64,000 nucleotides of DNA from Sporodiniella umbellata (taxonomy: Eukaryota; Mucoromycota; Mucoromycetes; Mucorales; Rhizopodaceae): contig JAIXMR010000015.1 in NCBI GenBank assembly GCA_025677835.1, positions 269,050 through 333,049 of the forward strand, read 5' to 3'. Below, piece after piece: positions 36,450 to 41,058 of the stretch. Below the pieces are notes generated by a model, which did no database searches, was not told the origin of the DNA, and worked only from the letters and a program-made list of their open reading frames with translations. The position numbers and the translations under genes were made by a program. Every line of letters begins with the position of its first letter. The stretch's first letter is position 1.

Positions 36450-36593
36450 CAGTGCCTCCACCCCAAATTTTCGTAAACCTAAAAACAGAATTCGTTTCGA
36501 TCTCCGCCTATCTTTCGCTGTTGCACTAGTCCAATTTTCGTAGTTGTGATTTCCAAAGTTCGTTTTTGTTAATTACCAAAATTCGTTTCAGAC
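36450..36593 (+). repeat. Left terminal inverted repeat
   Basis: This is the inverted partner of about 40915-41058. Inside it, short words recur: TTTTCGTA twice and AATTCGTTT or AGTTCGTTT three times. Such sub-repeats may be transposase binding sites (inference). Confidence 0.9.
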
Positions 36594-36794
36594 TACGGTC
36601 TGTCTTGAAAAGATAGTCGTTTTGTGAAAAAGGTCGTCGCATTTTTTTCTACCTCTATTTATTGTCATTAAGAAGACGAATCACATGTTTTTCTAGCAAG
36701 ATACAAAACAATGTCTTCAATGAGAGAGGAGGAATATTGTTTTAGAAGTTTAACCACCGAAAAAACGGTATTTCGAAAAGCAATCAACAGAACC

Positions 36795-37473
36795 AGTAAA
36801 ACCTAAAAAAAAAAGATGGCGCTAGATTATCTACCTACAACAGCTATAGCGAGAAGCAGTCTACCAACAGTAGAGAAACTTCAAAAATTGCACATGAAAT
36901 GGGAATCAATGAAAGGACAGCTCAAAGATGGTGGAAAAAGTACACAGAAACAAACGAGCTCCTAGTAAGCCCGAAACTTGTAAGTTATTAGGTAGAAAAA
37001 GCAAGGTCACAGCAGAACATTGTAAATTCCTTGCGCAAATCGTAGAAGAAAGCCCTCAAGCTACAGCAAATGATGCATTAGAGAGTTTAACAAAGCAATT
37101 CGAGGGTTTGACCATTTCCAGAAGCCAACTTCATTGTCATATGAAAATAACTCTCAATTTGAAGGTAAAATATGCAACATTTGAGTTAGTTGCTCGAAAT
37201 GATGCTGAGAATTTGGGAAAACGGTTTGAATGGTATCAAATTCACGCGAAAATAGATCTTGATTTCTTAAAGAACCACGTTTTTATCAATAAAGCCAGCT
37301 TTCATATTAACATGAAAAATAACTGGGCATGGGCAGAAAAAGGAGCAACAACCCACATCATTATCGGCGCAATCGCAGCTGTTGGTGTGATGCATGTTGC
37401 ATTAAGAAAGCTTCCCCCACCTAAATCAAGAAGTAAATCGACGATAAAAAATCGTAAAACAAACAAAGGTTAG
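36795..37473 (+). pseudogene. Decayed Tc1/mariner-like transposase, left copy
   Basis: A helix-turn-helix segment (IAHEMGINERTAQRWWKKY, from about 36868) lies in one frame and the continuation (LLGRKSKVTAEHCKFLAQIV, from about 36982) in another, so there is a frameshift between them. The frame from 36928 runs to 37473. Its first catalytic block reads VFINKASFHINM where relatives have V-F-[IV]-D-E-[AS]-x-F, so the first Asp is lost. A segment of about 20 residues after WAWAEKGATT appears deleted, and the second and third catalytic blocks are missing. It is clearly related to the copy at 39360-40676 (shared plan and spacing) but diverged and in the opposite orientation. It should be inactive. 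Confidence 0.8.
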
Positions 37474-37815
37474 AAGAGCCGAAAACCATTGGTTTTTGCT
37501 ATTTGCACTCTATTTTAAACACAGATTATGCGTTTAAAATTACTGTGTGGCGTAGCAACTTGGGGGTTTTTTAATTTGCTTTTACAATCATAACCATCTA
37601 GGCAGTCCACCCATAATAAGACTGTACCGAAAGTACCACATCTAATTAACGAAGAGAAGATCTCCTCATCAGATTTACAGGGATAATCCACTTTTAGTTA
37701 TAAAGAACGACTACGGTAAAGATCCAGACCTTTTTCTCAAACAGTATAAATACACTTGATATTTTGAACTAAAAATCATTTTTTATTCAGTCTCGTTAAA
37801 CTCGTCTTTTTCTAG
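37474..37815. other. Non-coding stretch inside the element
   Basis: Between the left transposase relic and the RPD-family gene I see no coding signal. A pyrimidine-rich stretch ending TTTTTCTAG at 37815 may be the splice acceptor for the first visible exon of that gene. Confidence 0.4.
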
Positions 37816-38539
37816 CCTGATTTCTCAGAGGTGTCTTCTATCTCATCAAGCAAGTAAAAACTTCCTGAAGAGCCGTTATTAAATCACGAAATCAAGGAAA
37901 TTGAATTGACCACCAAATATCTAGACCCCTTATTGAATGGAATGTTGAACAATCATGACAAAAGCCATAGTTTCATGTGGTAAAACCGTTGTAATATCTG
38001 TATTAAACGTGTAAACTTAATATGTTTTTTTAGGACGAACACGCAAGGTATCGGCACAGACGGCGAGCGTCCCGATGCAGGGATGTTCTTTTTGAAGCAA
38101 AGTACAGCGGACTATACGGTCGGTTACTGCGAAGTGGAAATTAATGAAAGTAACAACAGCTCTCTGGACATTCACTATGACATGCTACGTTTAACTAAAT
38201 TTGGAAAGAATATTTGTGACGAAGAAAACTTGGAGAGTGCCCTAATAGTTATGGTAGTTGGTAAGTTTGTCAAAAAAAATATTCAGTTTTGTTTCTGTAT
38301 CCAATCATCATTCTGATCGTTAAATGTTATACCATACCAAAGGATTTAAGCTGGCTTTTTATATGATTGTGTTGCGAAACAGCAAATTTTATACAATGTT
38401 CGAAATATACAGCATCGATGTTCCCCAGTCATTTAATTCTCTTCCAATCCTGATGACAAGCATCCACAAAATCAAGCAAATCATCCATATGTATCAAAGT
38501 CATTGTGTCAAGAGACCTCCTGAGTCCCCAAAAAGATGA
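37816..38539 (+). CDS. RPD/E-x-K family protein (putative PD-(D/E)XK-like), possibly decayed
   Basis: Three segments join in phase: 37816-37979, 38034-38260 and 38343-38539. The protein contains KYLDPLLNGML, then GERPDAGMFFLKQS, VGYCEVEINES, DMLRLTKFGKNICDE and GFKLAFYMIVLRNSKFYTMF. I recognise this order (YxDP - RPD - GYxEVK - DhhRLxxFxKNxID - GFxhxFY) from a family of uncharacterised proteins with many copies in Mucoromycota genomes. RPD followed by E-x-K resembles a PD-(D/E)XK nuclease core; that is inference, and here the Lys is Glu (CEVE). One in-frame TAA lies at 37855-37857. No convincing start codon is visible, so the gene may be truncated or extend upstream through unseen exons. It lies inside the transposon. 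Confidence 0.6.
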
Positions 38540-39359
38540 AGAAGCAGATCAATGAGTAAGAAAGAGTACAGCCAGATAATCAACTATATGAAACCAAAAA
38601 AGATGAAACCTTCATTGAGTTTCAAGTGATATCAAAAAACTAAGTTTATTCATCGTAATAAAGATCATTGTGGTTGTGTTTATCATTGTCGCTATCTTTG
38701 TAATGAATATCTTCAATTTATATTAAACAACAGTCATGCTGCCCGAATCGTAAAAAATCATTAAATGAGCAATTCAGGCTTTTTTATGAAGGAACGGAGG
38801 AGACATGTTTGGACAGCTATAATTGATGAGAGCATGCAGCCATTTTTTTTTTCAAAACAGAGTATTTCGCCAGCTATTAAAAATTTCTTTTCCTTTCGTG
38901 TTAGACAAATTTAGAACCAAAAACACTACTTAAATTTTCGGGTGGGGCGCACCTAATGCTGGGCATAGAAAATATCCTTAAATCGGATACCCTAACATAA
39001 AGCCACTACTGTATCCATGATAAGATAAAATCCTTTCATTTCAGGATATCTGTTCGTCCAAGATGTCCAATGTGTCTCTTATAAAAATTAAGATAATAAC
39101 CAGTTGTCATAACTAACTTCACGTAAAAAAAAACAAGCTAATTATGAATTAGAAAAGTAAAAAACAAAGACGTAAATAATAATGTCAGACTTAAGTTCAC
39201 AGTGTGTTCCAATTGAAGTTTGAGAAGTGTTCCAAATGAAGTTCAAATTTAATTGGTTGAACGTTCCATTTTGTTTTCGAGAAATGTACCACCAAGTTCA
39301 AAAAATATACGATTTGAGAGCGGAAGCACTGTATTTTAGGCATCCTGCCTAAAAGTTTA
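38540..39359. other. Non-coding centre of the element
   Basis: About 820 bp between the RPD-family gene and the end of the right transposase. Near 39198-39235 two short related words occur (TTCCAATTGAAGTTT and TTCCAAATGAAGTTC). A G-rich block near 38938-38950 superficially resembles an inner transposon end but I could not pair it. No gene is seen. Confidence 0.45.
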
Positions 39360-40676
39360 TTAGAGCGGCTCTTTCTTGAGATATATTTCAAAACTGTCAA
39401 CAGAGTGCTGAGTAATGTTATGAAGAGTTTTTCTGCTGATGCTTTTGCTTGCTTCGGCAATCCTAGTTTTTAAGTCTTCTGTATCAGCAAATATACCTCG
39501 TTTAACTGTACCTTTGAGGATTGACCAAAAGCTTTCAATTCAATTGAGTTCTGGAGAGTATGGAGGAAGGTATATTGCCCTATAGCCTCTAGCTTCCATC
39601 ATCCTTGTTATCTCGTGTAAGGTGTGGATTGGTGCATTATCCATTACAATATAGAAATTGTTCATTTCAGGAAATTTATCCATTTCATCCAATGTTTTAG
39701 AAACGAACCTCATGTAATGGCCAGTAACAGTTCCCTTGGGCACATTCTTTGCTGCAGGCTTCTTTCTCTTCTTTCTACTATCAATCTTCACTTTCTTGGG
39801 CCCCATAGGCTCCCTTATTTCAATTGTTATAGCGTCATTGACTGATATGGCTCCCAGAACAGTACGTGAGAGAGCTCGAGAAGTAGGCGTTTTGACAATT
39901 GCTGGTGTGTCACGAATTGAACAAGCATTGGTGCTCATATTGATACTAAAGCCGGCTTCATCCACAAAAACGCAATTTTTCAGATACTTCATATTGGTGC
40001 CTTCCTATTTCTTAACTCAGTTATAACACTTTTCACGATTATCAAGGCTATTTCTTGCCAAGGGTTGTAGGGTGACCCTCTTCACAGTCAGATTGCACTC
40101 GTAAAGAATAAAATTTGCAACAGCAGTAGTTTTCAAATTGAAATTTTCGAATGCTTCTGTTAAACTTTCAACTGCATCTTGTCTTGTTGCTTGAGAATAT
40201 ATATCAAAAAAGTCAATGAGATGTTTTTTATGATTTTCCTGAAGTTGCGAGGCCAATCGGTTGACCTTATTGGTCTGCTTTTCATAGATATTCCACTGAG
40301 GGTCTTCTTTGAATCGCTTTGCCCATATTTGTCCTGTGCGAATTTCAACTTGAGCCTTACGAGCAGAAGGAGCGGCCTTCAACAGCTTGACTCTATTAAA
40401 ATAATAGAAAACAGCCTTATGCTTGTCGGAGTAGACATTCTATTTTCTACCGCCTGCTACTTCTTTCGATAATTCCTCAGCTGCTTCCTCCATTTCAACA
40501 TCAAGCTCTTCTGTGGGTTCAGCAGGAAAGTGATCCTGGTAAGATCGGTACTGGGTTATTGTCATTAAGGTTCCAAGATTGAAAGGATCGACTTCCTCCT
40601 CCAAATCTATAGTTTCATTTCCCTGCTCATCCACAACGTTACCCTGACCATCTTCGTAAAAGAAATTATTGCTCAT
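39360..40676 (-). pseudogene. Tc1/mariner-like (DD34E) transposase with four in-frame stops
   Basis: On the minus strand one reading frame runs from ATG 40674-40676 to TAA 39360-39362, 438 codons, with no frameshift. It is interrupted by four stops: after GGRK (40440-40442), after KCYN (TGA, 40017-40019), after VKK (TAG, 40005-40007) and after SPELN (TGA, 39540-39542). The N-terminal part is acidic, then comes a DNA-binding region, then catalytic blocks FVDEAGFSIN (first Asp), VMDNAPIH (second Asp) and, past the last stop, IESFW (Glu). Spacing from second Asp to Glu fits DD34E, the Tc1 pattern. A basic KIDSRKKRKK stretch may be a nuclear signal. As written it cannot make a full protein, but decay looks recent. 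Confidence 0.85.
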
Positions 40677-40914
40677 TTTGCTTATTTAATGAAAAAAGTA
40701 ACAGAGTTAAAAAATCTTGGTATTTTCTCGGTTTACTGGGCCTGTCTCGTTATTGGACTGCGAGCGTCATGCGTGTGTTCCGGTGCTGAGTATTGTAAAA
40801 ACAAAATTCTTTATGTACAGTATGAAGACGGAGCTAATTGTCGACACTAATACATTACTAATAGTAAGTCTTGCAAACAGTGTCATCAGGATTGTGCATA
40901 GAAAATTTGTATGC

Positions 40915-41058
40915 AGCCTGAAGCGAATTTTGGTAATTAACAAAAACGAACTTTGGAAATCACAACTACGAAAATTGGACTAGTGCAGCAGCGAAAAATA
41001 GGCGGAGATCGAAACGAATTCTGTTTTTAGGTTTACGAAAATTGGGGTGGAGGTACTG
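40915..41058 (-). repeat. Right terminal inverted repeat
   Basis: Inverted copy of 36450-36593, ending GGTACTG on the plus strand directly followed by TA. It differs from the left copy by four substitutions and one base of gap. Confidence 0.9.

Follow-up and report, generated by a model that had tools for sequence, protein, structure and literature searches.

A decayed Tc1/mariner element in Sporodiniella umbellata, probably one of a class that carries RPD-family genes

What kind of element fills 4,609 bp between inverted ends of the Tc1/mariner type with two inward-facing transposase relics and the relic of an RPD-family gene, when typical Tc1/mariner elements have one gene? The question is raised by a locus in the window, as we call the whole 64,000-nucleotide stretch C57:269050-333049 (C numbers denote contigs) of the genome of the mucoralean fungus Sporodiniella umbellata (26 Mb, 198 contigs). 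A sequence-only reading had proposed that the locus stands for a cargo-carrying Tc1 class. We consider it probable that a Tc1/mariner element (IS630, DD34E), belonging to the family of its right-hand transposase, R, has decayed here with an RPD relic and a fragment of an unrelated transposase, L, inside it, and that it is one of a class of TA-site cut-and-paste elements carrying a gene of likely PD-(D/E)XK fold (Table 1).

The ends of the element, described earlier as about 140 bp with four substitutions and one gap, align in just this way over 142 columns at 96.48% identity. As inverted arms of 133 nt with 96% identity, separated by 4.3 kb, they are far beyond what chance would produce. The TA duplication is imperfect, since the right end abuts a TA and the left TA is one base off (...GTAT/CAGTG). 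The interior also agrees with the earlier description of two diverged, oppositely oriented transposases with an RPD-family gene between them: L and R share 28% identity over 172 columns (28-30% across comparisons). They therefore belong to different lineages and are not decayed copies of one arm, which rules out a decayed arm duplication as the source of the window element.

Among the transposases compared, relic L is closest to the C132/C195/C14 lineage (43-44% amino acid (aa) identity). Relic R is broken into open reading frame (ORF) pieces at 40443-40685, 40020-40439, 39543-40004, and 39363-39539; it matches DDE_3 in a Pfam-type domain scan (9.8e-14) with four stops within the aligned stretch, and its relatives are copies on C163, C187, and C2 (55% aa identity) and at C122:139955 (64% over 80 aa). 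The DD34E spacing, 34 residues between D and E, was counted by eye. The IS630 model matches the C120 transposase copy (2.2e-48), and Sleeping Beauty was matched in a PDB sequence search (3.3e-7). The DDE transposase with DD34E spacing and the terminal inverted repeats (TIRs) fit Tc1/mariner (IS630).

The RPD relic corresponds to a named NCBI protein, BY458DRAFT_504323 of Sporodiniella umbellata. An exon at 37984-38313 is open, and stops occur in the matched sequence before and after it, some of which may be intron; one intron, judged from the NCBI protein P0002, is near 38262-38346. The NCBI model has 124 aa, compared with 437 aa in the C114 relative. In an alignment of seven members, PD and E are invariant and E-x-K is kept in six, the exception being the window copy. 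As modelled, the RPD C-terminal domain resembles restriction enzymes, and a PD-(D/E)XK fold is likely, not proven. The family has no Pfam match, and a PDB sequence search with an RPD profile returned nothing better than E 0.08. RPD genes occur in many Mucorales, and scans of the viral_contigs and genome_contigs collections with P0006 found no relatives.

Table 1. Features of the element in the window (positions counted from the first base of the window)
Feature	Position	Strand	Remark
Left terminal inverted repeat (CAGTGCCTCCACCCC...)	36450..36591	+	96.5% vs right arm, 142 columns; end present at six further places
Transposase relic L (Tc1/IS630 type, truncated)	36800..37470	+	weak helix-turn-helix matches
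RPD gene relic (PD-(D/E)XK-like family)	37846..38536	+	E-x-K altered to E-V-E; stops in flanking matched stretches
Possible degenerate inner end (TACAGTGCTTCCGCTCTCA)	39315..39333	-	weak pattern match alone, may be chance
Transposase relic R (DDE_3)	39363..40685	-	DD34E spacing, stop precedes the E
Right terminal inverted repeat	40918..41058	-	TA at 41059-41060

At the level of a class, the proposal stood. Three RPD, one Rpn-like, and three transposase queries were placed on the genome, and all resulting counts are lower bounds. Seventy RPD matches reduced to 29 loci once extra pieces of the same gene were dropped, and these to 26 places separated by more than 10 kb, which were scored by their distance to any of 129 transposase loci. 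Ten of the 26 places, the window among them, have a Tc1/IS630 transposase no more than 2 kb away, a zone that makes up 2.05% of the genome (p = 5e-11 by a binomial test that ignores the clustering of mobile elements); at 5 kb the count is 11 (4.3% of the genome) and at 8 kb it is 12 (6.4%). Outside these counts, local scans also detected pieces of transposase next to RPD, clearly at C24 and as a weak match at C170. Other E-x-K-type families, whose names and nuclease nature were assigned by eye, as were those of the Rpn-like family, show no such enrichment in the 2-kb zone (RID, one of seven; EYAK, none of nine), which argues against a general attraction of such genes to transposases. The Rpn-like family is enriched (4 of 19), three of these being copies of one element.

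The RPD-bearing elements are of two kinds. Two loci, C38:2250-9894 and C195:74756-84157, hold a transposase and RPD between TIRs. The TIRs of C195 are 162 bp long and 98% identical; at C38 the outermost 50 bp are 98% inverted, with further matching blocks inward that are separated by insertions and deletions, and the interior has a transposase relic and, on the opposite strand, RPD in open frames. Between these two genes lies a nested element (C38:4238-7078, L057) with a reverse transcriptase and, by eye, a 407-aa tyrosine-recombinase-like ORF. The arm-type elements have inverted arms that are 96.9-100% identical and, where measured, about 1.2-3.4 kb long, with an inward-facing transposase in each; in some, the same transposase pseudogene is present in both arms. 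Counted from transposase matches alone, as inward-facing neighbours within 9 kb, there are 18 such pairs, and RPD lies between or within 2.5 kb of seven (C114, C122, C132, C160 twice, C185, and the window). The ends of the C160 arms are not resolved. The other inward-facing pairs also include C133, C187, C130, and C8. Judged by eye, the cargo of C14, C125a, and C125b is an Rpn-like gene, C112 has a gene with an E-x-K-like motif, and C117 an RPD-like piece; C120 has no cargo, and C2 has another transposase and an ORF of unknown function. The Rpn-like cargo had no match in Pfam or NCBIfam, and its AlphaFold model has a confidence score (pLDDT) of 40; between C14 and C125a, 7 of its changes are synonymous and 13 are not, and the resulting pN/pS of 0.49 is indecisive. 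Nine outward-facing pairs (C111, C120, C121, C133, C136, C171, C187, C188, and C8), compared by eye, have no census RPD locus on their contigs; in some outward-facing pairs both copies score equally.

Inner ends, sought with up to five mismatches, were not found in C14, C125a, C125b, C120, C2, or C38, each of which has just two outer ends. The arm-type elements among these six are thus single elements with long TIRs, and a composite transposon built from two full Tc1 elements is rejected for the elements tested, as their arms lack inner ends of their own. TA is found at both ends of C38, C195, C125a, C125b, C120, and C2, and also of C14, where the right end has one changed base.

The ends of the window element have a different record. 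Its 151-base left end, used as a genome query, gave nine matches, two being the window itself and seven lying at six other places. Both ends are present at C157:144507-146885, where they enclose a fragment resembling a long interspersed nuclear element, and one end was found at each of the remaining five. At C122:138455-142553 a transposase 58-64% like R adjoins the window-type end, which assigns ends of this type to the R family. Measured from each place, the nearest RPD match lies at 4.9 kb (C122:414374), 13.9 kb (C157), 23.2 kb (C141), and 278 kb (C122:140913), and the contigs C115 and C98 have no RPD match. The expectation that this end and RPD would recur together within 5 kb is therefore not supported: by bare distance one of the six places counts (C122:414374), and we place its RPD in a different element, as it sits between the arms of one that has its own left end, of another type, at 416582.

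Several results weigh against the reading we favour. Because the binomial test ignores the clustering of mobile elements, the reverse transcriptase control matters, and it is small: 1, 2, and 2 of its 14 places qualify at 2, 5, and 8 kb, and RPD differs from it with Fisher p values of 0.06, 0.09, and 0.08. At 16 of the 26 RPD places no transposase was found within 2 kb. None of the six other places with window-type ends yielded a second element that unites these ends with RPD. From their reading frames, we take all three window genes (L, R, and RPD) to be dead, and the locus looks chimeric as well.

A decayed and chimeric locus could also have arisen if R-type ends captured, or were inserted around, an older decayed element that consisted of transposase L and RPD, in which case the 4.6-kb unit was never one working cargo transposon. 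We regard this history as quite possible, at somewhat less than an even chance. It is in keeping with an L/R identity of 28-30% whereas the ends are 96.5% identical, with two broken transposases and an RPD gene that looks broken, and with the weak inner end in Table 1. It sits less well with the window ends, which match as one pair, and with the other elements that hold a transposase and RPD inside one TIR pair.

Other elements of this genome bear on how such elements spread and acquire their cargo. The main aligned blocks of C14, C125a, and C125b show 96-99% identity, and the flanks, compared over 299-800 bp, are unrelated. Across their outer 1.7 kb the six arms vary at 30 gap-free sites; at 28 of these both arms agree within each element, at two they disagree, and no site groups the arms by side. 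The arms of this three-copy family evolve in concert, a pattern that would follow from gene conversion between arms or from the rebuilding of one arm on the other. In C125 both arms also contain a long minisatellite of short units, open in several frames and much shorter in C14 (L048, L053). The C195 and C132 transposases are 88% identical and their RPD genes 40%, and over seven elements the RPD and transposase identity matrices are uncorrelated (Mantel r 0.03, p 0.45). RPD thus entered, or was exchanged between, elements more than once; a single old capture inherited with the transposase is rejected for C195 and C132 and finds no support in the Mantel test. The cargo at C122:418554-419979 (L032, L034) is 92% identical to a Rhizopus microsporus protein over 115 aligned residues, a stretch that includes an apparent intron read through, and 67% over the remaining 238 columns, gaps included, which hints at possible horizontal transfer.

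In the cargo-carrying class that we favour, the transposase would move the element by cut and paste. If RPD is an active nuclease, the breaks it makes might be repaired by copying, through gene conversion between arms or copies, to the profit of the element; such repair would homogenise or extend the arms and could explain how the transposase came to lie in both. To a nuclease function that benefits the element in this way we give about one chance in three. About as likely is that RPD genes, as a multigene family prone to transposable elements, are hitchhikers, picked up accidentally during recombination of elements and without any part in their mobility. The absence of shared phylogeny with the transposase over seven elements and the 16 places without a nearby transposase are what hitchhiking would predict, while the strong and repeated enrichment of RPD beside the unenriched RID and EYAK, the constraint on RPD codons, and the RPD frames at C38 and C114, which are open although the transposases next to them are broken, speak for a role. 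A bolder proposal is that Mucoralean Tc1/IS630 elements repeatedly recruited restriction-endonuclease-fold proteins and use them to spread in a further way, by copying, in which breaks repaired between arms or copies would keep arms identical, grow short TIRs into transposase-bearing arms, and swap nuclease modules; this is speculative, and we consider it rather unlikely.

RPD might instead be a structural partner in transposition, like the TnsA nuclease that works beside the DDE transposase of Tn7; a likely PD-(D/E)XK fold adjoining a DDE transposase recalls that arrangement, which is improbable here since elements without RPD exist (C131, C120), RPD and transposase do not coevolve, and Tc1/IS630 transposases cut both strands unaided. 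That the long arms are assembly artefacts is about equally improbable: their identity of 96.9-100%, the pseudogenes shared by both arms, and a palindrome on C185 whose ends are not reached might suggest it, yet the arms of C14, C125a, and C125b stop at TA-flanked TIRs in unrelated flanks and the three elements have their own interiors and element-specific variants. The C185 palindrome (C185:89120-106900; L059, L050, L060) has arms of at least 7.7 kb with 99.7% identity, 2.35 kb between them, and RPD and a transposase in each.

With Tc1/mariner (IS630) DD34E elements the Sporodiniella class shares DDE_3, the IS630 model match, TACAG ends, and TA, which is imperfect at the window locus; it departs from the typical form in its second gene and, often, in having both arms equipped with a transposase. 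Long inverted arms are also a feature of foldback elements such as Tetris; unlike these, the Sporodiniella arms hold a transposase gene and enclose cargo. Mariner elements of algal virus genomes combine their transposase with an endonuclease and, in addition, a methyltransferase or Fanzor, the endonucleases being one EcoRII-like, one GIY-YIG, and one annotated restriction enzyme (Bao and Jurka 2013, PMC3627910). They are similar in their Mariner transposase, TIRs, TA, endonuclease as second gene, and chimeric 3' parts, and they are single-copy elements of algal viruses; the Sporodiniella elements, in contrast, are fungal and nuclear, occupy many loci, have transposase-bearing arms and an RPD gene without a Pfam match, and a methyltransferase was not noticed in them. 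KolobokP likewise has a DDE transposase and a gene for a nuclease, with a long repeat at either end, and a double mode of spread has been proposed for it; it is a Kolobok-superfamily element of animals with a His-Me homing nuclease and with its genes between long direct repeats (Kojima and Bao 2022, PMC9587614), whereas the Sporodiniella elements have inverted arms and an IS630-type transposase. Crinkler-RHS effectors are also eukaryotic restriction-endonuclease-fold domains with a transposon-linked history (PMC5289972); the Crinkler header, NTPase, and kinase domains were not seen in the Pfam-scanned RPD proteins (P0006, P0059, P0021, and two loci). What sets the class apart from the viral Mariner elements and KolobokP is its host, its family of nuclease, the repeated acquisition of the cargo, and the arms that bear a transposase. 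We found no description of these elements in the literature, where coverage was thin for subscription papers and Repbase reports lay outside it. RPD, a fungal family without a Pfam match, is linked to a likely fold and to a vehicle that makes it mobile, and the reason for its expansion becomes testable. Nature also supplies here DNA transposons whose arms each hold a transposase and are homogenised, with nuclease modules exchanged between elements, which makes the origin of two-gene and long-TIR elements directly testable.

C195-type ends are also found at C128:92264-92734 (L065) and C41:34973-35110, with a different ORF that has a D...E-Y-A-K motif; the two ORFs are 70% alike over 52 residues. 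In the window, the element is flanked by two ORFs noted by eye only, an SH3-domain-like one on its left (35797-36174) and, 300 bp to its right, a thaumatin-like one (41361-42119).

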